DNA of 44,061 nt, taken from positions 1 to 44,061 of the IMG/VR virus record IMGVR_UViG_3300009641_000005. One strand, given 5' to 3'. The DNA comes from a virus. The notes beneath the pieces were generated by a model. That model did no database searches, had not been told where the DNA came from, and saw only the letters and a list, made by a program, of their open reading frames with translations. Shown here piece after piece: positions 6,372-16,000 of this stretch (position 1 is the stretch's first letter; the number at the start of each line of letters is the position of its first letter). A program made the position numbers and the translations under genes.

Positions 6372-7292
6372 TCACTTAGATGTGGTCACAGCATAACAAG
6401 CAGCAATCAGCCCTGCCCTCCCGGAGGTAAAGAACGATTCCTTAAACACATCAATGAGAAAGAACGCACGTCCTTCCCCCTTCCCACCTTGAAGTAAGAC
6501 CTTCGTAGTGTAGGACAAGATCATGCGACGCAGCGTCTCTGGATCCTCATCAAGCGTTTGCAGCATTGCGGCCACCTCCTTCCACTGAGGCTGAGAAAAG
6601 ATCAACAACCGGGCCAACTCAATTGCCTTCGTCCGCACGTCCCCTTTGACAATGGTATCTAGCTGATCCTGCTTGTCCGGGAAGTTGATGATGGCATGCA
6701 GAATTGACAAAACCCGACGGGCGCTCCCATCAGCATACTCTACAATCCTGTCCCTCACCTCCTCATCCAACCGCTTGCCCTCAGACGCACAGACACGCCC
6801 CACCAACTCTTCGAGACACGCGACCGACAGCGCCTTGACCCTAACATCTGTGCATCGGTTTCGAATAGTCGGGATGAGCTTCTCTGGCTCAGTGGTCGCA
6901 AGGATGAAGTAAACGTGCCGAGGTGTGTCCTCAAGGATCTTCAACAGGGCATTCTGCGCGTCACTGCTGAGCTTATGGGCTTCATCAAATAAGAACATCC
7001 TGACCCCTCCCCACAAAGGGGCAAGTCCAGCCCGCTGCTTGACCTCCCGGATTGTATCGATACCCCTGGTCTCCGCTGCATTGTATTCGGCAAAGTCTCC
7101 ATCATCACAATTCAGCTTGCTCTTGATGATGCGAGCAAGGGTAGTCTTGCCACAGCCGGAAGGCCCATACAGCAACAGCGCGTGAGGCATCCGCTTCTGC
7201 TTAAGGAAGTCGGACAGCATCCGAACGGCTTCCTCCTGTCCGATCACGTCCTTAAACAGAGCTGGGCGATAAAGGCGATGGAATTCAGTCAT
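6372..7292 (-). CDS. DNA polymerase clamp loader ATPase (DnaX/HolB-like)
   Basis: The 306-aa AAA+ protein starts TEFHRLYRPALFKDVIGQEE, the classic opening of DnaX-type and archaeal or eukaryotic RFC subunits. It has Walker A at 43-50 (GPSGCGKT), Walker B with DEAH at about 103-106 (MFLFDEAHKLS), sensor-1 region YFILATTEPEKL and the IRNRC segment that corresponds to the SRC arginine-finger motif. The C-terminal third is helical and should form the collar. The four-Cys zinc module of bacterial DnaX is absent. It would open and place the sliding clamp encoded a few genes upstream. Only one loader subunit gene is visible, so it may be homo-oligomeric or use host subunits. It overlaps the polymerase stop by 8 bases. 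Confidence 0.9.
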   Translation of the reverse strand: MTEFHRLYRPALFKDVIGQEEAVRMLSDFLKQKRMPHALLLYGPSGCGKTTLARIIKSKLNCDDGDFAEYNAAETRGIDTIREVKQRAGLAPLWGGVRMFLFDEAHKLSSDAQNALLKILEDTPRHVYFILATTEPEKLIPTIRNRCTDVRVKALSVACLEELVGRVCASEGKRLDEEVRDRIVEYADGSARRVLSILHAIINFPDKQDQLDTIVKGDVRTKAIELARLLIFSQPQWKEVAAMLQTLDEDPETLRRMILSYTTKVLLQGGKGEGRAFFLIDVFKESFFTSGRAGLIAACYAVTTSK

Positions 7293-8808
7293 GGCTAGTC
7301 CTATGTTCAGCAGCTAAGTAGGATAGGAAGTCCCACTGATTGGAAAAGATTCTGGAATCCTCTTCTCCTTCTGGACTGATGCGAAATCTCTGACCCTTAA
7401 AATCAAATGGCTTCTTATCATACCACGACCCATTTGGGGGGCAGATCTCATTCTCAATCTCCAGCGGGACAACCAACCAGGTATATTCCTTACGAATGTC
7501 CTCCACTGCGATTCGCTGCAGAATATGAAGATACTCGCTCAACTCATCTTGCCTCACATCTGCGATAATCGAATCATGAATCTGTCCTACCACCTGTGAC
7601 CGCATTTTGCGCCGACGAAGCTCTTTGACTAAGCGAATCAATATCCAGAGCAAGCAGTGAAAGGCCGAACCTTGAATTGGATAATTGATCACCTGGTTCC
7701 TATCCATTGTCCCCGCAATCCGGAAACCAGTAAGCGTCTCGAAATACCCTTTCTCTAAATACAGCCTATACCAATCCAACTTCCATTGGCCATAAACCTT
7801 AAAGCGCCTGTGCCAGAAATCATCCTCCACCTCCTGGATATGCGCCACGAAAGTTCCGTCAATCACTTTAGGAAGTGGATCTTTGCTCGTATCACAATCA
7901 CCTAATCCCCATGGAAACTCCCGATCAAGATGCTGGCGCAGGGTTATCCCTCCCGGCGCTTGCAGCTTCGCCTGATCGGCCCACTCCCACAACTCTGGGG
8001 CACACTGCATGAAGAAGCTGTTGTAGAATTCGGGGAATACGAATTTGTTCTTCGCCCCATATCGATGAAGCTTACCATGCTCTTCCACCCACTCCACCGG
8101 AATCAGATAGAGTTGGGCGGCCATGTCCCGGTGCATGTCCTTAGTTCGATCCTTCAGGTAGGTAATCATGGTCGGGTCTCGATGATAACACGTCGCCATG
8201 ACCACTTCAGCCCCTCGGAGATCACTCTCAACTAGGACGCAATCATCACTCGCAATGAATCCAGTGCGAATGAGCTTTGAGACCTCCGGATCCCGAATAG
8301 GAATGTTTTGGAAATTGGGCGTATCGGAAGAGGAACGATAGGTGACAGGGATATGCAAATTGAACTGAGGATGAATCCTATCTCCAACCAGCTCACGTTG
8401 GATTTGCTTGAGATATGTTCCATGCGCCTTTTGCAATTTACCCAGCTTCAGCAAATCCTCAATGAATGGGTCCTTAATCCGTTCGAGGATAGTAGCATCA
8501 GTAGAGAACCGCTCTCCGGACTCCGTGCGATCCTCTTGCCGCACCGGGTATTTAAGCACCTCAAAGAGCACCACTCCTAGCTGAACATCCGATTGAAGAT
8601 TAGCTCGGTCCCCATATCGCTGTCGCCATGCTGTCCATTGCTTAGTTTCATAGAGGCGATGTTCCAACTTAGCAATTTCCTCCTTGGACTGCTTGCTCAT
8701 CCGATTAAGGTAGTCCACATCGACCCTCATACCAGCCGCTTCAACATAGGTCAGGGCGATCTGGCCCTCATGCAGCAAACGATAACCGGGATGGTCAACT
8801 GGTTCCAT
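7285..8808 (-). CDS. family A DNA polymerase (polymerase domain only)
   Basis: The 507-aa protein has the thumb, palm and fingers of PolA without a nuclease domain. Palm motif A is ESDLRGAEVVMA (Asp196, Glu201; variant of DYSQIELR). The fingers helix is RYGAKNKFVFPEFYNS, with Asn where YG usually has Gly. Motif C is VGQIHDSII with the catalytic His-Asp. It also shows TYRSSSDTPNFQNIP and the INYPIQGSAFHCL segment typical of family A. The proofreading exonuclease lies in the preceding gene fused to a uracil-DNA glycosylase, and the 5' nuclease is a separate gene, so PolA functions are spread over three polypeptides. A stretch around residues 255-345 is longer than usual. Start ATG 8808 directly follows the upstream stop. 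Confidence 0.95.
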   Translation of the reverse strand: MEPVDHPGYRLLHEGQIALTYVEAAGMRVDVDYLNRMSKQSKEEIAKLEHRLYETKQWTAWRQRYGDRANLQSDVQLGVVLFEVLKYPVRQEDRTESGERFSTDATILERIKDPFIEDLLKLGKLQKAHGTYLKQIQRELVGDRIHPQFNLHIPVTYRSSSDTPNFQNIPIRDPEVSKLIRTGFIASDDCVLVESDLRGAEVVMATCYHRDPTMITYLKDRTKDMHRDMAAQLYLIPVEWVEEHGKLHRYGAKNKFVFPEFYNSFFMQCAPELWEWADQAKLQAPGGITLRQHLDREFPWGLGDCDTSKDPLPKVIDGTFVAHIQEVEDDFWHRRFKVYGQWKLDWYRLYLEKGYFETLTGFRIAGTMDRNQVINYPIQGSAFHCLLWILIRLVKELRRRKMRSQVVGQIHDSIIADVRQDELSEYLHILQRIAVEDIRKEYTWLVVPLEIENEICPPNGSWYDKKPFDFKGQRFRISPEGEEDSRIFSNQWDFLSYLAAEHRTSHD

Positions 8809-8810
8809 GA

Positions 8811-10013
8811 TTAGGATTTCCCTAACTGCATTATCTGTTTATCTGCTACCAAGAACTCCATCAGAGTATCTGTCCCGCAATATAGCAGCAGTTGACGCAA
8901 TTCCACTTCTTCTTTCAGCAGGTTTAGCTTGCTCCCTTCCTGACTCTGCATGAACTCCCGAATCACTTCATCATAAGCCGGCATCCCGAGGTAGATGTAG
9001 GCTTGAAATTTGAGCCCGCTAATGTGCCGGCGATTATCAAGTACATGGGCCCCAATCACCGTATCATGCAACCAGTGTCGCACGCCACGACCAAATGCCC
9101 AATTAGTCCAACGATTTTCAAACTTCAACATCGAAGCAATGAAGTAGCAGTTGTCAGCATGGAGCAGTTCCTTAGTAGCCTCAATCGCCTCACCCTGCCA
9201 AGGATAGGCAATGGTCTTCTTCCCTTCCCAACAAGCCGACGCGCACAGGATTTGGGCCCCAGGGTACTCAGGCTTCAAGCAGTTGGCCTCATAATCAAAG
9301 GCGACCCGCCCCCCACGTCTGGCCATTTCCCGAAGGATCCGGGCTGCTTCAACTACATCAAACAGCACCTCGACCTGTTGCTCATAATTAGGAACCTTGT
9401 CCCAGGGCCGCCCCCGCAATTCAAAGGCTTCATGCAAGTGCTGTAAGAAGGTTGCCTCCAGAACTTCATCATGCCGTTTGAGAATGTAGCTCGGGTGGTA
9501 GGTTGGACAAATCCAAGCATTTGGTTTCTGACTAGGAATTCTCCAACCGGCCCAGCGACTAATGGGGCCCGGATTGTCATTCCATACTCCACCAATCAGG
9601 CTCTTGACCGCAGCAAAGCCTAGCAGCAAGATCACGTCCGGCTCTAACTGCTCTACCGTGTCGACCAGATTCGGGCGGCAATGGTCAATCATCATCTCAC
9701 TGGTGATCTTGTTTCCGGGCGGCCGACAGATCAGAGCGTTCGTTGTCCAACAGTCCTGATGGAGTTCAACCCCTGCTACCCGATCTAACATGTCCCGAAG
9801 ATAGCTTCCGACCTTGCCCACGAACTGTATCCCTTCTACATCCTCCGTCTCTCCCGGTGCCTCCCCTACCACAAGCACGCGCCGCTCACCCCTCCCAAAG
9901 GGTTTCATCTTGGGTGAGCGGCAAGAACGATACAATCCACACGCCCCACACGCTGGCAGCCGAGGAGGAGGAGCTTTTTGAATCAAAGTTGAGCGAGCGA
10001 AGAAGCCCTTCAT
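8811..10013 (-). CDS. family 4-type uracil-DNA glycosylase fused to DnaQ-like 3'-5' exonuclease
   Basis: The 400-aa protein has two domains. Residues about 20-215 match UDG families 4/5: Cys22-x2-Cys25 with further Cys for a 4Fe-4S cluster, the uracil pocket GEAPGETEDVEGIQFVG (about 50-66), TNALICRPPGNK, and the late motif YHPSYIL. Residues about 230-400 resemble the PolA-type 3'-5' exonuclease: VAFDYEAN (motif I, Asp/Glu), ASMLKFENRW (motif II) and YCGTDTLMEFL (motif III Asp). It would supply proofreading to the separate polymerase gene just downstream and recognise uracil in DNA. The start at ATG 10013 is chosen because it follows the clamp stop (TGA-g-ATG); an upstream frame to 10088 lies inside the clamp gene. 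Confidence 0.85.
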   Translation of the reverse strand: MKGFFARSTLIQKAPPPRLPACGACGLYRSCRSPKMKPFGRGERRVLVVGEAPGETEDVEGIQFVGKVGSYLRDMLDRVAGVELHQDCWTTNALICRPPGNKITSEMMIDHCRPNLVDTVEQLEPDVILLLGFAAVKSLIGGVWNDNPGPISRWAGWRIPSQKPNAWICPTYHPSYILKRHDEVLEATFLQHLHEAFELRGRPWDKVPNYEQQVEVLFDVVEAARILREMARRGGRVAFDYEANCLKPEYPGAQILCASACWEGKKTIAYPWQGEAIEATKELLHADNCYFIASMLKFENRWTNWAFGRGVRHWLHDTVIGAHVLDNRRHISGLKFQAYIYLGMPAYDEVIREFMQSQEGSKLNLLKEEVELRQLLLYCGTDTLMEFLVADKQIMQLGKS

Positions 10014-10014
10014 C

Positions 10015-11046
10015 TCACTCGTCCTTTTGGGCGGGTTCGGCAGCAACCGGGGCCAGCGCGGTAACAAAGGTCCATTTCGGCCCCTCAACCTTAAGTCGAT
10101 CCACCGCTACCTCAGCCTCAGTCTGCTTCTCCGTTATCTCGACCAGCAACCCAGGGGCGATATAGAACGACATCTCTGGGCCATCATAGACCAGCTTCTT
10201 GACCTCTTGATACCAACCGGACACGCCCGTGCCCTTAACTCGCATCCGACCGGAGCGCAGTTCAACCTTGATCAAATTGTCCTCGCTATTCTCCGCCGAG
10301 AAGATAGAGGCCTTCTCTACTACCTCTCCAAGTCCTTTCGGTAGGGTGATCGGGGAACCTTTGACCGCCAGCACCTTCGACAGGTCTTGGTACTCCAGCA
10401 TGTACCGACGCATACTCAACACCAATCCATCCGCATTGCGGAAATGGAGCCATGCCTCACTCTCCGAGAACTCCGACATACCCAACGCCACAATGTTGCG
10501 CAGCGCGTCCCGGCGTACTAAGGTAGCCTTTTTCAAACCGGTCTTAATCCTGACCCGGATGGCCTGCAGGTCATTACAGGATTCAATATGATCAGGGTGG
10601 AGATGGATGCAAGTCATGTTGAACTGACTCTCATCCTGGCTCGCGTGATGTTGGACAAGCCCAACCGCTTCGACAAATTCCTCTGACAAAGGTCGCCAGT
10701 CCCCCGGCTTCTCGACCTTGTTGAACGGAAGGGTCACTTCTGCCTCCAGTCGAATCCCGCATTTGCGATGCTTGCCAATCAGCACCAATTCCTTGCCTTC
10801 GATTTCATATTCGAGGGTTTCTTCCACGAGCTTGCCCAGGATCGCGACGAGCGGCAACGCTGGAACAGCCCCCTCGATATGCAAGTCACAATCCCGGCGA
10901 CAGGCCACTTCATCATTGTAGGTAAAGAGACGCTGCTTTTGAAAAACAAAGCACGAGCTCTGTTCAATAATCTCCCGGGGAGAAAGCCCCGCCTCAACTG
11001 ATTGCAGCTGAGCAAGCAGAGATTCACGATTGATTTGATTTGGCAT
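10015..11046 (-). CDS. sliding clamp (DnaN/beta-clamp-like)
   Basis: The 343-aa protein has the length and three-repeat beta/alpha pattern of DNA sliding clamps. Each repeat begins with a helix (ESLLAQLQSVEAGLS; RRDALRNIVALGM; LPKGLGEVVEKASIF) and continues with strands. VPALPLVAILGKL is like the beta-clamp helix that follows the first strand block, and DNLIKVELRSGRMRVKGTGVSGWYQEV is like the third-repeat strands. Direct sequence identity to bacterial DnaN looks low, so the call leans on architecture and on its place right before exonuclease, polymerase and clamp-loader genes. The ring would hold the polymerase on DNA. The ATG at 11046 overlaps the preceding small ORF by 23 bases with no strong ribosome binding site. 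Confidence 0.7.
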   Translation of the reverse strand: MPNQINRESLLAQLQSVEAGLSPREIIEQSSCFVFQKQRLFTYNDEVACRRDCDLHIEGAVPALPLVAILGKLVEETLEYEIEGKELVLIGKHRKCGIRLEAEVTLPFNKVEKPGDWRPLSEEFVEAVGLVQHHASQDESQFNMTCIHLHPDHIESCNDLQAIRVRIKTGLKKATLVRRDALRNIVALGMSEFSESEAWLHFRNADGLVLSMRRYMLEYQDLSKVLAVKGSPITLPKGLGEVVEKASIFSAENSEDNLIKVELRSGRMRVKGTGVSGWYQEVKKLVYDGPEMSFYIAPGLLVEITEKQTEAEVAVDRLKVEGPKWTFVTALAPVAAEPAQKDE

Positions 11047-11213: not shown

Positions 11214-12275
11214 CTAGGAAGAGGCAAGTCTAAGGGTTGCTATTTTGGGACGAGACTTGAAAGGCCACGGCCATTCTGGCAGCGCCTTCCGAAAGCGTTC
11301 AAACAGCAGCAGGTTGGCTTTGGCTCGCATGGTCCAATCATTGACAACGCCCTTAACTACTATCTTGTCATCCTTCCTATAGCCAAGCGGCACGCCAATT
11401 TCCATAAGCCAATCTCGGACGATCTGCTGCTCCTTCTCTGTCCGGCGATAGAGATGGACGCCGGAATAGTCCTCGAAGTTTGTCTCATCAGAGACCATCA
11501 GCATGTATGGATTCTCGGTCACCACGAATTGCCCCGCTCGATAGTGCGGGACATAGATGCGCCCATACCCGGCGAGCTTCACCCAGCTGGCGCTATCAAC
11601 CGACCACCAAGGGTAGCGGCGCATCAGGCTCCAGGCGGTCATGGCAAACCCATGCGTCCTGACCATCGGCTTGCGCGAGGGCTGATCACAAATCAGATCA
11701 AAGACCTGATCACCCCACGCTAGGTACTCCTCCTTCTTGACCTCCTGACCGAGCCCACCCAACCCGATCAGATCATACTTAGCCTCAAGGTGCTTGGCAA
11801 TCCACTTGAGGGGTGTACCATAATGAATGACTGGAACTGGATGCAGCCCATGCTCATCCTCGAGGTACTTCAGCACCTTCCAAGATAGCTCGGGATTGAA
11901 AATGACATCCACGGTCGCATAGAATTGGATTGCTCCCTGACAGCGTGGGTCCTTGAGGAAGGCAGCATAGGCATCACAATAGGCGTAGAACTCCTTCGAG
12001 GAATAGTAGGCATACTTCAGCTCTTTCTGCCGAGGAGTCAGATCACGCCCATGCACCCCACCGACCACGTGGACGTGCCGATTGTAGAGACCATGCGCCC
12101 CGGAATCAAAGAACACCTGATTGAGCTCTGTCTCAGCGTGTTCAAATAGGTATTGGTTAAGCTGACCATCCGGTGGCAGGCGAGACTCATCATCCAGGCT
12201 GTCCCGCTGCTCCTGCTCTTCAGGAACATAGGAACCAGGACGCAAGGCTCTGCGCTTATTGAATAGGCCGGTCAT
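11214..12275 (-). CDS. dpdA: DpdA-like 7-deazaguanine DNA transglycosylase (TGT family)
   Basis: The 353-aa protein shows marks of the tRNA-guanine-transglycosylase-related DpdA family, which exchanges guanine in DNA for a 7-deazaguanine base. FFDSGAHGLYN (about 55-64) matches the substrate-pocket DSGA motif. PVIHYGTPLKWIAKHL and DLIGLGGLGQEV are mid-barrel TGT-type segments, and MVRTHGFAMTAWSLMRRYP with WWSVDSASWVKLAGYG matches the late barrel region containing Asp-Ser in DpdA. It lies in a translationally coupled run with FolE, QueD and QueE, as expected for phages with 7-deazaguanine DNA. The ATG at 12275 overlaps the upstream stop as ATGA (12272-12275); a TTG 15 bases earlier is rejected. 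The exact base inserted cannot be told from sequence. Confidence 0.8.
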   Translation of the reverse strand: MTGLFNKRRALRPGSYVPEEQEQRDSLDDESRLPPDGQLNQYLFEHAETELNQVFFDSGAHGLYNRHVHVVGGVHGRDLTPRQKELKYAYYSSKEFYAYCDAYAAFLKDPRCQGAIQFYATVDVIFNPELSWKVLKYLEDEHGLHPVPVIHYGTPLKWIAKHLEAKYDLIGLGGLGQEVKKEEYLAWGDQVFDLICDQPSRKPMVRTHGFAMTAWSLMRRYPWWSVDSASWVKLAGYGRIYVPHYRAGQFVVTENPYMLMVSDETNFEDYSGVHLYRRTEKEQQIVRDWLMEIGVPLGYRKDDKIVVKGVVNDWTMRAKANLLLFERFRKALPEWPWPFKSRPKIATLRLASS

Positions 12276-13414
12276 ATACAGCCATGCCAAATGTTGACCT
12301 CCCTATTATCAGCTTTCACCCCGGTGATGATCTCTGCTTCGATGATACGACCAAGATCACACCTTCTGGCAATCCATTCGAGATCAACCAAGGGATGCTC
12401 TTCAGTCAACCGATTCAACAGCAGGCAAGCGTCCTCGACATTGAAAGCTCGATACAAGCGTGAAGCAGGGAGGATTTCGGGAAAACTGCGGAAGTCCGGA
12501 TAGGCCAATTCACATCCTGCAATCACTGCTTCAAGCAGCGTCCAGGAGACATAGTCCTGCAACGAGGAGTTAAACTGAATAGAAGAATTGCAAAGCTCAT
12601 CATAGTATTGCTGTTTGGTCAGACCTGCCTTGAGGATGAAACGAGGCTCATTCCGAGCGTAGGAAAGAATATCAGACAGCAAAAGATGATCATTCGACCG
12701 AAAGTTCTTGCTACTGGTAGTGACCGTCCAAGTCCAATTAGGATGACCGGTTAAGAAACGTTCGGCCACTTGAAGCATGAAGCCCGGATTCTTCTCCCAA
12801 TCAAGTCGGGAGCAAAAGATCACGTTCTTCCTACGTCCAATCGGAACGGACATCTGACAAGCCACCAACCGCGCGTGAATCGGCAGACCGACAACATGGA
12901 TAGGACATTGCACCCCGGCAGCACGCAATTGATCCCGATGGATGGTGCTGGCAACGAAGATGGCCGAATGGAATCGAGTCAGTCCTAGCTCCATTGGTCG
13001 CATCCATTCCCGCATCGGCCAAGTGAAGTCATATTCATCCACGCTCTGCGCATGGAGCATGGAATAAATCTTGGGTTTGAGCCCACACAGGTGCAGCGCA
13101 TAGGGGACCGCTTCAAATCCCGGCGTCCAAAAGTCCTGCAGGAAGATGGCATCCTCGTTGCTAACTGACCCATTCCGAATGAGCTTCAGCAGCAAGGCGA
13201 CCTGCGTGCAAGCATAGATCCCCCGACCAGTTGCATCCAACACCCCCCCGACTTGGATCTGCTCATCAGTCGTTTCCCCGCTGATCGTGGTGAGATTCGT
13301 CCTCGGCGAAGCCTCCCTAACCGCAGCCGGAAACCAATCCTCGCAGAGCTGCTTGGTATAACGGGCAGCTAATGGTTCCAACCCTAGATAAAAAAGCCTC
13401 CGAATTAATTTCAT
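12272..13414 (-). CDS. GT-B-fold glycosyltransferase (family 4-like)
   Basis: The 380-aa protein fits a GT-B glycosyltransferase. The C-terminal Rossmann domain opens with NVIFCSRLDWEKNPGFMLQV (the GT4 start: strand, R-x-x-x-x-KN), then WTWTVTTSSK and KAGLTKQQYYDELCNSSIQF, and ends with SWTLLEAVIAGCELAYPD, the E-x7-E region of sugar-nucleotide transferases in the form LLEAVIAG. The N-terminal domain (GRGIYACTQVALLLKLIRNG) would bind acceptor. It lies between the QueD-like fusion gene and the dpdA-like gene with ATGA overlaps on both sides, so it is almost certainly part of the base-modification operon. Adding sugar to the modified base, or to a precursor, is an inference; cell-surface or capsid sugar transfer is the alternative. 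Confidence 0.75.
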   Translation of the reverse strand: MKLIRRLFYLGLEPLAARYTKQLCEDWFPAAVREASPRTNLTTISGETTDEQIQVGGVLDATGRGIYACTQVALLLKLIRNGSVSNEDAIFLQDFWTPGFEAVPYALHLCGLKPKIYSMLHAQSVDEYDFTWPMREWMRPMELGLTRFHSAIFVASTIHRDQLRAAGVQCPIHVVGLPIHARLVACQMSVPIGRRKNVIFCSRLDWEKNPGFMLQVAERFLTGHPNWTWTVTTSSKNFRSNDHLLLSDILSYARNEPRFILKAGLTKQQYYDELCNSSIQFNSSLQDYVSWTLLEAVIAGCELAYPDFRSFPEILPASRLYRAFNVEDACLLLNRLTEEHPLVDLEWIARRCDLGRIIEAEIITGVKADNREVNIWHGCI

Positions 13415-14271
13415 AATTTGATCTCCACGTCCTGATCAAAGCCGGGATGATATAGCCAGGTGCTCCACAGCTCTGAACTAAAGACCTTGTGCCACACGAT
13501 ATTGTCTTTGAGGATCTGCTTCTGGTAGAGATGCTGTTTGTAGAAGCTCCGTCCAATGATGATTTTCTTAAAGTAATCCGACACCTCATAAAACGGACCG
13601 ACCACAACCACTGCACCGATCTGTTTCTGGTGCGGGAGCATCGACAGGAACTCACAAGTGTTCCTGGCCAGCAGCGGGCTATCAAGCTCAATATCTACCT
13701 GCAGCCTACATCGCTTGGCCTCCTTAAGAATCTGGTCCAGAAAGTAGAGGCCCACCCCATGCCGATTACCAGCCCCGCAGTAAATCCGTTGGACAAAGGA
13801 TCGCCCGGCCAGCTGCTCGACCTTGCGCAATGCGGACAAGGCTTCCGGTACGCTCACCCCACCCGGAATGAAAAGGGTTCGGGCTCCCTTGAAAGGACCC
13901 TCAAGTTCAGTACCAAGGAAGCAGCGGGGCCTCAACATCAATGCCCGATTCGAAGCGGTGACGGACGCCGCATTCTCCCCATCCTCCCCCACTGTCACCA
14001 CCTTCGCTCGGAAGTGAACTAGCAGATCTTCCGCGATCTGTTCGCAGCTCAGATCAAAGCAGCGATCCTCATAGGTCGCCCGAATATATTGATCGAGCTT
14101 CTTCTTGAACATGAAAAACTCAATCTTCCGATCATTGTGGCCGACGTTAAGGGTCACCATGACCGGAAAGATATGCCGATGGAACTGGCGAAGGAAGGCC
14201 ACCTCCTTTGGGGCGTCCTTCCAGCGATGCTGCGCTTGGAACGAGGTGCGGATGTGGAGTTGCGTGCTCAT
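13411..14271 (-). CDS. QueD-like (PTPS-fold) domain without catalytic Cys, fused to unknown C-terminal domain
   Basis: The 286-aa protein begins with a domain that lines up with 6-carboxytetrahydropterin synthase. FQAQHR carries zinc ligand His15, and FHRHIF carries His31-x-His33. These are followed by VTLNVGHNDRKIEFFMFKKK in place of the V.v.v.g.D..GmviDF..lk stretch, and CEQIAEDLLVHF in place of the SEN-IA helix with its Glu. The catalytic Cys that lies four residues before the first His of HxH in QueD is Leu27 here, so the chemistry must differ. Residues about 115-286 (GTELEGPFKGARTLFIPGG, IYCGAGNRHGVGLYF) match nothing I know. ATGA overlaps join it to folE and the glycosyltransferase. It could process CDG, for example by decarboxylation or transfer; that is inference. 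Confidence 0.65.
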   Translation of the reverse strand: MSTQLHIRTSFQAQHRWKDAPKEVAFLRQFHRHIFPVMVTLNVGHNDRKIEFFMFKKKLDQYIRATYEDRCFDLSCEQIAEDLLVHFRAKVVTVGEDGENAASVTASNRALMLRPRCFLGTELEGPFKGARTLFIPGGVSVPEALSALRKVEQLAGRSFVQRIYCGAGNRHGVGLYFLDQILKEAKRCRLQVDIELDSPLLARNTCEFLSMLPHQKQIGAVVVVGPFYEVSDYFKKIIIGRSFYKQHLYQKQILKDNIVWHKVFSSELWSTWLYHPGFDQDVEIKL

Positions 14272-14828
14272 AGAGATCGATGGACAAAGGATATGAATTC
14301 GGCCCGGACTTCTGGTTCAAGAAAAGATCCCCGAAGGACTTGTGTCGTCATCTGCTGGCCCTGCTTGCATATACCCCTGCTCTCCATGCACAGGTGTCGA
14401 GCCGTGAGCGAAACACCCACCCCAATTGGATGTAGATGCTCCATTAGTGCGTCAGCCACCTGCTGAGTAAGCCTCTCCTGGATCTGCAGGCGCCGCGCAT
14501 ATACCTCCAAGACCCGAGAGAGTTTGCTCACCCCAACCACGCGCTTGTCAGGAATATAACCAATGACCGCTGTTCCAAAGAAAGGAGCTAAGTGATGCTC
14601 GCAGAGACTGTAGAAGGGAAGGTCTCGCAGGAGAACCATTTCATTATATTTCTCCCCCCCTTCCTTGAAGCACGTCAGCAGCTTGCCCACGTCCTGATGA
14701 TAACCGACCGTCCACTCCTTCCAAGCTCTTAGCACCCGAGCCGGTGTCTTGAGCAGACCTTCCCGCATTGGGTCCTCCCCGACGAAGCGCAAAATCTCCC
14801 GGATCGTTTCTTCATCGGCTCTCTTCAT
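14268..14828 (-). CDS. folE: GTP cyclohydrolase I
   Basis: The 186-aa enzyme turns GTP into 7,8-dihydroneopterin triphosphate, the first step to folates and to 7-deazaguanines. The family motifs are present: EDPMREGLLKTPARVLRAWK near the start, SLCEHHLAPFFGTAVIGYIP with the zinc Cys-Glu-His-His, VVGVSKLSRVLEVYARRLQI, QERLTQQVADAL, and the late CMESRGICKQGQ stretch with the second zinc Cys. The length is that of a bacterial type IA enzyme. It starts one base after the queE stop (TGA-g-ATG) and ends in an ATGA overlap with the QueD-like fusion gene. Its place here marks it as feeding the deazaguanine pathway rather than folate. Confidence 0.95.
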   Translation of the reverse strand: MKRADEETIREILRFVGEDPMREGLLKTPARVLRAWKEWTVGYHQDVGKLLTCFKEGGEKYNEMVLLRDLPFYSLCEHHLAPFFGTAVIGYIPDKRVVGVSKLSRVLEVYARRLQIQERLTQQVADALMEHLHPIGVGVSLTARHLCMESRGICKQGQQMTTQVLRGSFLEPEVRAEFISFVHRSL

Positions 14829-14829
14829 C

Positions 14830-15519
14830 TCAATATCCTTTCTTCAGGTCACCACCGAGTGGGACCGGCGGCTTAGTCCTATTATCTAGGAAGTCGGCGG
14901 CGTAGAGTTTGTGAAGCTGCCAACCTACGCGCAGAATAGCAGAGCCAGACAAAGCCCAACGTACCATTCCATCGAGCAGAGCTTTGTCATTCCGACGCGA
15001 CCATTCTGGATGCAGCCAAATTGGTACATTAGGATCCAAGTTTCCCCCAAGCTGATCGCGCAACGTATCAAGCCACCATTCAACGTCCGAAGGCTGCTCG
15101 ATGATCAGCTTCAGCTCATCGGCCAAGGCAATGGATTGAGGAGGAGGAATGTTCTGCCGCTTGGGAGAAAGGGTGACCCAATCAAAGATGTCTGGGAACA
15201 TTCGATAGCCGGAGGTCTCCAAATGCACACTCTGATTGGACGCGTGCATCAGATCAACCAGCAGGTGAAGATCGTGGACAATCGGCTCCCCACCGGTGAT
15301 GACGATAAAATCGCAGCAGGTCTCTCCGGCCTCTTTCACGAGCTGCTCCTCCGAGATCCTTTCAATCTTGTCCGGAATATACTTCGGGTGCCAAGTCCCA
15401 GCTGCATCACACCAAGGGCACTTCAATGGGCACCCGAAGGTACGAATGAAAAAGGCTGGTCGGCCAAGATGAACCCCTTCCCCTTGGAAGCTATAGAAAC
15501 GCTCATGAATTGGTAGCAT
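14830..15519 (-). CDS. queE: 7-carboxy-7-deazaguanine synthase (radical SAM)
   Basis: The 229-aa radical-SAM enzyme converts 6-carboxytetrahydropterin to 7-carboxy-7-deazaguanine (CDG). The N-terminus FYSFQGEGVHLGRPAFFIRT is diagnostic for QueE. The cluster-binding Cys30-x3-Cys34-x2-Cys37 (GCPLKCPWCD) has the canonical CxxxCxxC spacing, and the SAM-binding GGEP motif follows (VITGGEPIVHD). KRQNIPPPQSIALADELKLII corresponds to the substrate-binding C-terminal half. It follows queD with a 1-base gap and precedes folE. All parts look intact, so CDG production seems possible if iron-sulfur supply comes from the host. Confidence 0.92.
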   Translation of the reverse strand: MLPIHERFYSFQGEGVHLGRPAFFIRTFGCPLKCPWCDAAGTWHPKYIPDKIERISEEQLVKEAGETCCDFIVITGGEPIVHDLHLLVDLMHASNQSVHLETSGYRMFPDIFDWVTLSPKRQNIPPPQSIALADELKLIIEQPSDVEWWLDTLRDQLGGNLDPNVPIWLHPEWSRRNDKALLDGMVRWALSGSAILRVGWQLHKLYAADFLDNRTKPPVPLGGDLKKGY

Positions 15520-15520
15520 G

Positions 15521-16000
15521 TCAGGAAATGGTCGCGAAGTTCTTCTCGTCCTCCCAAACTGTCACCTTCGAAACCCGCACCTCGCGCTCGGCTAACTCAT
15601 CCCTAGAACGTAACAGGACGTTAACCTCCTCTAAGACCTGCCGAGCTATCCCTTCCGCCCCACAATTATGAACAAGGGTAATCTTGGCCAGAGGCTTAAG
15701 CCCAATCGCCTTCATCGCAGCACCGCAGAGCACACTCTCAAGATATTCCCGACCGGGATCAGTCCGATTCAACACGAGGGTATGATCAAAGCGTTCCTCA
15801 AGCCACTTCTTCAGCCAATCCAACTTGCCGAAGTCAATCACAAATCCGTTGTCATCAAAATCCATGCAGGAGAACTGGATCTCGATCTTCCAGTTATGCC
15901 CGTGGATAAGTGCGCAGTGTCCATCGTGAGAATGCTGCCGATGGGCGAAGGGAAATGGTCCGAAGACCTTGCTGCAAGTGATGCTCATAGTAATATCCAT
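15521..16000 (-). CDS. queD: 6-carboxy-5,6,7,8-tetrahydropterin synthase
   Basis: The 159-aa enzyme converts dihydroneopterin triphosphate to 6-carboxytetrahydropterin. The zinc ligands are His20 (FAHRQ), His33 and His35 (IHGHNW), and Cys29 sits four residues before His33 in the catalytic C-x3-H-x-H pattern. It also has VIDFGKLDWLKKWL, FDHTLVLN with the Asp-His pair, and CGAEGIARQVLEEV with the catalytic Glu. It is thus a complete QueD, in contrast to the Cys-less relative three genes downstream. The ATG at 16000 lacks a good Shine-Dalgarno and is preceded at once by a hairpin with a T-rich tail. It is the first gene of the deazaguanine cluster. Confidence 0.93.
   Translation of the reverse strand: MDITMSITCSKVFGPFPFAHRQHSHDGHCALIHGHNWKIEIQFSCMDFDDNGFVIDFGKLDWLKKWLEERFDHTLVLNRTDPGREYLESVLCGAAMKAIGLKPLAKITLVHNCGAEGIARQVLEEVNVLLRSRDELAEREVRVSKVTVWEDEKNFATIS

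Follow-up and report, generated by a model that had tools for sequence, protein, structure and literature searches.

A QueC-less 7-deazaguanine operon with an embedded glycosyltransferase gene: a probable route to sugar-bearing phage DNA

How might a virus use the deazaguanine precursor CDG (7-carboxy-7-deazaguanine) if it has no QueC, and what would a glycosyltransferase be doing among its deazaguanine genes? Both questions are raised by IMG/VR virus record IMGVR_UViG_3300009641_000005, of which positions 1 to 44,061 (44,061 nucleotides, hereafter the window) were analysed. On its minus strand, from 16000 to 11214, six co-directional genes encode, in order, QueD, QueE, FolE, a 286-amino-acid (aa) fusion protein, a 380-aa glycosyltransferase (GT) and DpdA. 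With a probability of roughly 70%, we read this operon as a system of post-replicative DNA hypermodification, in which CDG would be made, processed without QueC, inserted by DpdA and glycosylated. The features are:

15521 to 16000, minus strand: QueD (6-carboxytetrahydropterin synthase), 159 aa, first gene of the operon (PF01242 E=6.8e-25; phrog_2389 E=7e-31)
14830 to 15519, minus strand: QueE (CDG synthase, radical SAM), 229 aa (Radical_SAM E=2.7e-9; phrog_2076 E=2e-32)
14268 to 14828, minus strand: FolE (GTP cyclohydrolase I), 186 aa (PF01227 E=1.6e-66)
13936 to 14271, minus strand: QueD paralogue ("DpdL-like"), N-terminal 112 residues of the fusion gene (phrog_17812 E=6e-21)
13411 to 13935, minus strand: domain X, alpha/beta, C-terminal part of the fusion gene (profile match, 20-member alignment and locus cluster)
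12272 to 13414, minus strand: GT, GT-B fold, GT4-like retaining type, 380 aa (structure model and alignment)
11214 to 12275, minus strand: DpdA (DNA guanine transglycosylase), phage 9g type, 353 aa (phrog_887, "queuine tRNA-ribosyltransferase", E=2e-31)

The operon and the absence of QueC

An earlier sequence-only reading had placed QueD, QueE, FolE and DpdA in one coupled run, with a GT-B gene between the fusion gene and dpdA and ATGA overlaps on both sides of it. Both observations hold: profile matches put all six genes where they had been described, one nucleotide separates QueD from QueE and QueE from FolE, and the remaining three junctions (FolE/fusion, fusion/GT and GT/DpdA) are ATGA overlaps. 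The operon is real and probably functional, and, given the overlap with the GT gene, DpdA most likely starts at ATG 12275 (353 aa) rather than at TTG 12290. Functionally, FolE, QueD and QueE convert GTP to CDG by an established pathway. The operon QueD retains the catalytic cysteine, aligned four residues ahead of HGH, and NCBIfam QueE models matched the window QueE with E-values down to 4e-23, under the cut-off. In a relative (L020), FolE2 occupies the corresponding stretch in place of FolE (NF010200 E=1.8e-63, 214.6 bits against a cut-off of 215), a swap that would be expected if the H2NTP-forming activity matters. A tblastn search with DpdA matched 187 phage records, phage 9g included, and both TGT-like aspartates are conserved (D62 and D232 in a 358-aa numbering; motifs DSGA and S(V/I)D). 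By its FolE, QueD and QueE genes, and by a DpdA with both catalytic aspartates, the operon is a member of the phage 7-deazaguanine DNA modification family; it lacks the QueC ATP-pyrophosphatase that marks the preQ0/archaeosine branch, and its QueD paralogue, domain X and GT set it apart as a variant of that family.

The sequence-only reading had also reported no QueC, and the QueC profile (PF06508) indeed found no match in the window. For the rest of the genome, to which that reading had pointed, we turned to two longer contigs: one of 70,185 bases (L143), part of which is at least 99.8% identical to the window and which has a 69-nucleotide (nt) terminal direct repeat, and a divergent relative, 73,187 bases long, whose ends carry a 123-nt direct repeat. 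Because of these repeats both contigs are probably complete, and the profile found QueC in neither, so a gene lying just beyond the window edge was rejected. The search itself works: of 9 records with distant DpdA relatives that were examined closely, it recovered QueC in 8. Among other phages with the same genes, there was no PF06508 match in ZZ01, Phosso, ACP17 or the PAC2/PA5oct-type Pseudomonas phages, Xanthomonas phage X1 gave a sub-threshold match only, and no match in 22 further IMG/VR records spanned the whole profile. Weak or partial matches were considered as hidden QueC and rejected, those inspected resembling NAD-synthase-type or other PP-loop proteins. A convincing QueC was thus found in none of the module-bearing virus genomes tested, several of them large or probably complete.

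The fusion gene and the glycosyltransferase

What stands in the place of QueC is a gene that the sequence-only reading had called a QueD-like fusion, a label that was right about the QueD-like part and incomplete about the rest, since the protein joins a QueD paralogue to a second conserved domain, X. In alignment, the paralogue keeps the zinc ligands H15, H31 and H33 together with Glu96, and the position of the catalytic cysteine is Leu27, a leucine nearly invariant across the family. Its AlphaFold model (AF2; predicted local distance difference test, pLDDT, 86) resembles Escherichia coli QueD (4ntn; Foldseek E=1.6e-6; template-modelling score, TM, 0.67 by target length). This second QueD copy therefore has the QueD/PTPS fold and lacks the cysteine that QueD carries four residues ahead of its HxH zinc motif. 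Relatives of the paralogue occur in Cellulophaga phages phiST, phi13:1 and phi19:2, a suggestive link by which the paralogue is plausibly DpdL, reportedly a proposed CDG decarboxylase of phages with deoxy-7-deazaguanine (Cui et al. 2023).

Domain X was traced with a profile built from two fusion copies, which matched a small open reading frame of phage ACP17 (hmmsearch E=0.002), and across 20 aligned members the pattern FxGxEVE, TLFV, YFGAN and TxWxxYxxD recurs consistently. The cluster is found in 58 loci, mostly as a stand-alone gene and usually adjoining the QueD paralogue, so that the window gene joins what are usually two separately encoded proteins. Assignment of X to a known family failed: it had no sequence match in the PDB, and Foldseek returned weak ribokinase-like matches only.

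The GT matches Pfam weakly (PF13439 E=0.004); its AlphaFold model (pLDDT 88) matches retaining GT4/GT-B enzymes with a Foldseek E-value of about 1e-12, the closest folds being glycogen synthase, PglA, BshA, MshA and SenB. R203, E207, K208 and E295 are invariant across 36 members, and the protein has both the two-domain GT-B fold and the conserved donor-site R, EK and C-terminal E of GT4-like enzymes. Genes nearby support sugar chemistry: PF01370-type NAD-epimerases lie near the GT in 44 loci, a partial DegT/DnrJ-like protein in 28, and in L020 an FkbM methyltransferase lies between the fusion gene and the GT. Deazaguanine genes were present in all six distinct phage contexts read for the GT family. 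From this GT-B gene embedded in a QueC-less operon, the sequence-only reading had suggested a sugar-decorated deazaguanine, and sequence and structure models together support that as likely. It had further proposed CDG or a direct CDG derivative as the inserted base, of which the QueC-less deazaguanine operon stands; CDG itself is probably not the final base, because the DpdA and GT genes come with a QueD paralogue that has lost the catalytic cysteine, and usually with X too.

Outside the window, a second sugar cluster lies near portal and capsid genes in the 70,185-base contig (L143:6485-10800), with a GT9-type glycosyltransferase (PF01075), an NAD-epimerase (PF01370), a methyltransferase, and a Gly_transf_sug protein that also bears a methyltransferase domain. 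Of these, the methyltransferase alone is matched in the 73-kb relative. The cluster may serve virion glycosylation or sugar-nucleotide supply.

A module shared among phages

A scan of IMG/VR with the QueD-paralogue alignment confirmed at least 593 relatives, from which the best 80 were taken, together with 13 loci from bacterial genome and metagenome-assembled genome (MAG) contigs; the 80 viral loci, selected for their resemblance to the QueD paralogue of the GT-bearing phage ACP17, are not an unbiased census. Co-occurrence was counted in the 58 loci, viral or from MAGs, in which 3.5 kb or more flanks the QueD paralogue on both sides. The GT was present in 56 of the 58 (within 3.5 kb of the paralogue in 53), DpdA in 50, FolE in 48, X in 38 and an epimerase in 34, and all 56 GTs share strand. 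The recurrent order is DpdA, X, QueD paralogue, GT, often an NAD-epimerase, and then FolE and QueD or QueE. Isolated phages with the QueD paralogue, the GT and deazaguanine genes include Synechococcus BUCT-ZZ01, Xanthomonas X1, Sinorhizobium Phosso, Acidovorax ACP17 and Pseudomonas phages of the PAC2/PA5oct type. DpdA, X, QueD paralogue, GT and FolE are thus a common and widespread module, shared by dozens of unrelated phages and not peculiar to the window.

Evolutionarily, the module is found with two kinds of transglycosylase. The window and L020 carry the phage 9g-type DpdA (phrog_887), whereas most other module loci encode a different, longer transglycosylase-like protein that conserves DSGG and a later aspartate, and whose profile, searched against the PDB, matched TGTs in 37 of 37 cases (E 0.1 to 1). 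By hhalign, two subtypes of the longer protein were linked at 95%, with no link to the DpdA type of the window. That the QueD paralogue, X and the GT travel with two divergent transglycosylase groups argues that they are tied to the modified base and not to one phage lineage. At the loci of the distant DpdA relatives, phmmer gave no match to the GT or the QueD paralogue.

Several variants of these loci were seen. Where there is no GT and no detected DpdA, the QueD paralogue is followed by a protein of about 260-300 aa, phrog_20335 (L037:8726-9505, L038:8812-9606, L129:3464-4300 and seven other loci), which may be an unrecognised transglycosylase or a replacement enzyme. Four bacterial contigs from Magnetospirillum (L130-L133) hold GT and QueD-paralogue genes, with a DpdA-like gene adjoining in two of the four. 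A gene of the IMP dehydrogenase/GMP reductase family lies within the module in L066, L068, L070, L072, L077, L089, L093, L099, L125 and L126 (PF00478 E=4e-67 for the single gene tested) and probably feeds GTP into the pathway, and gpt-type phosphoribosyltransferases occur in 29 loci.

In the window, the operon is set among replication genes, with a sliding clamp, a UDG-exonuclease and a family A polymerase on one flank, and a DnaB-like helicase and a replication initiator on the opposite one. The family A DNA polymerase is split in two genes (7285-10088), the first combining a uracil-DNA glycosylase domain with a match to the upstream part of the polymerase profile, the second encoding the polymerase, an arrangement shared by L020.

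Proposed pathway, alternatives and relation to known systems

Taking these lines together, we propose that FolE, QueD and QueE, the enzymes of the established route identified in the operon, would make CDG from GTP, and that the QueD paralogue, predicted to bind zinc without a catalytic cysteine, would act with X on CDG instead of QueC, decarboxylating it or altering position 7 in some other way. DpdA, judging from its family, would then swap the product for guanine in phage DNA, and the GT4-like enzyme would put a sugar on the deazaguanine, most likely after its insertion into DNA; by analogy, DNA modified in this way should be shielded from host nucleases. Several points weigh against this proposal. 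Chemically, CDG and 7-deazaguanine have no ordinary hydroxyl to which a sugar could be attached, and since 7-deazaguanine offers no obvious oxygen acceptor, two possibilities should be considered, namely that the sugar forms a C-glycoside at position 7 or that the paralogue and X make some other product. The co-occurrence figures are biased upwards because the loci were chosen through the ACP17 protein, relatives without a GT or a detected DpdA exist (phiST, MA9V-3, RHph_I1_18 and D479), and sugar genes near the capsid genes of the same genome mean that not every sugar enzyme need serve DNA.

Some of these points would fit a DNA that holds CDG or 7-deazaguanine without a sugar, the GT merely sharing the operon and acting on, for example, host envelope sugars or virion proteins. 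GT-less relatives carry FolE, QueD and QueE together with the QueD paralogue, unrelated glycosyltransferase and epimerase genes lie elsewhere in the same genome, and Cellulophaga phages reportedly hold unglycosylated deoxy-7-deazaguanine or dCDG (Cui et al. 2023). We nevertheless regard this explanation as unlikely, with the GT being ATGA-coupled to both neighbours, staying close to the QueD paralogue in nearly all flanked loci, following the module across two transglycosylase groups, and keeping company with deazaguanine genes in every phage context read. More doubtful still is that host QueC turns the phage CDG into preQ0, leaving ordinary dPreQ0 or dADG, possibly glycosylated, in the DNA. 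Many bacteria do have QueC, the PF06508 profile matching 12 of 14 control genomes, and DpdA of the 9g type is known to insert preQ0-type bases (PMC6884629), but the records of distant DpdA relatives usually bring their own QueC, while here a dedicated QueD paralogue and X take its place and the genomes tested offer no convincing QueC, their weak matches, where inspected, resembling NAD-synthase-type or other PP-loop proteins. Least probable of all is that the genes raise queuosine or glycosylated queuosine in host tRNA: DpdA is a distant TGT relative, and a tRNA role was suggested for phages with the pathway but without DpdA (Hutinet et al. 2019, PMC6884629), yet the window DpdA falls in the phage family shown to modify DNA (PMC6884629), and queuosine requires preQ0 and therefore QueC.

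It is also fairly likely, though less so than this reading of the operon itself, that glycosylated 7-deazaguanine is an undescribed and widespread class of phage hypermodification. In that case the paralogue and X would replace QueC and convert CDG into an acceptor for the sugar, and exchangeable tailoring enzymes, epimerases and methyltransferases among them, would vary the sugar across many phages, perhaps hundreds. Parts of the scheme have precedents. DpdA and DpdA2 systems have been described, and the QueC-less Mycobacterium phage Bipper was suggested to carry CDG (Hutinet et al. 2019, PMC6884629), so the QueC-less CDG half of the proposal is not new. Like the FolE-QueD-QueE-QueC-DpdA systems of phages 9g and CAjan, the operon gathers FolE, QueD, QueE and a 9g-type DpdA in one block; unlike them, it has no QueC and adds the QueD paralogue devoid of the catalytic cysteine, domain X and a GT. 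The absence of QueC is shared with Bipper and, reportedly, with the Cellulophaga phages (Cui et al. 2023), whereas searches of the phiST locus gave no GT, X or DpdA-like gene. As with the T4 alpha- and beta-glucosyltransferases acting on hydroxymethylcytosine, a phage GT would decorate a modified base after replication, but the base and the precursor pathway differ, and the window enzyme is a GT4-like retaining GT-B protein with a fold near PglA, BshA and MshA.

In Xanthomonas phage PhiXhv-12 (L036:7648-10882), too, a deazaguanine gene stands next to a GT that belongs, distantly, to the family of the window enzyme; this locus differs from the window in having Gat-QueC (PF06508 E=2e-49) and a PIG-L deacetylase, with no QueD paralogue found there; this suggests that deazaguanines may be decorated with sugars in a QueC-dependent pathway as well. 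A PIG-L deacetylase label in phage X1, given from reading the sequence, was unsupported by Pfam and was not used as evidence.

To our knowledge, the known glycosylated phage bases are built on pyrimidines, and literature searches turned up no account of glycosylated deazaguanine in DNA, most subscription papers and bioRxiv preprints lying beyond their coverage. If the proposal is true, DNA hypermodification would gain a new chemical class and CDG a use that does not depend on QueC, while two enzyme families, the QueD paralogue and domain X, await a function. Since cultivable phages carry the module, the identity of both base and sugar is directly testable, and the modification may bear on phage resistance to restriction and CRISPR nucleases, and on how well phage DNA sequences.

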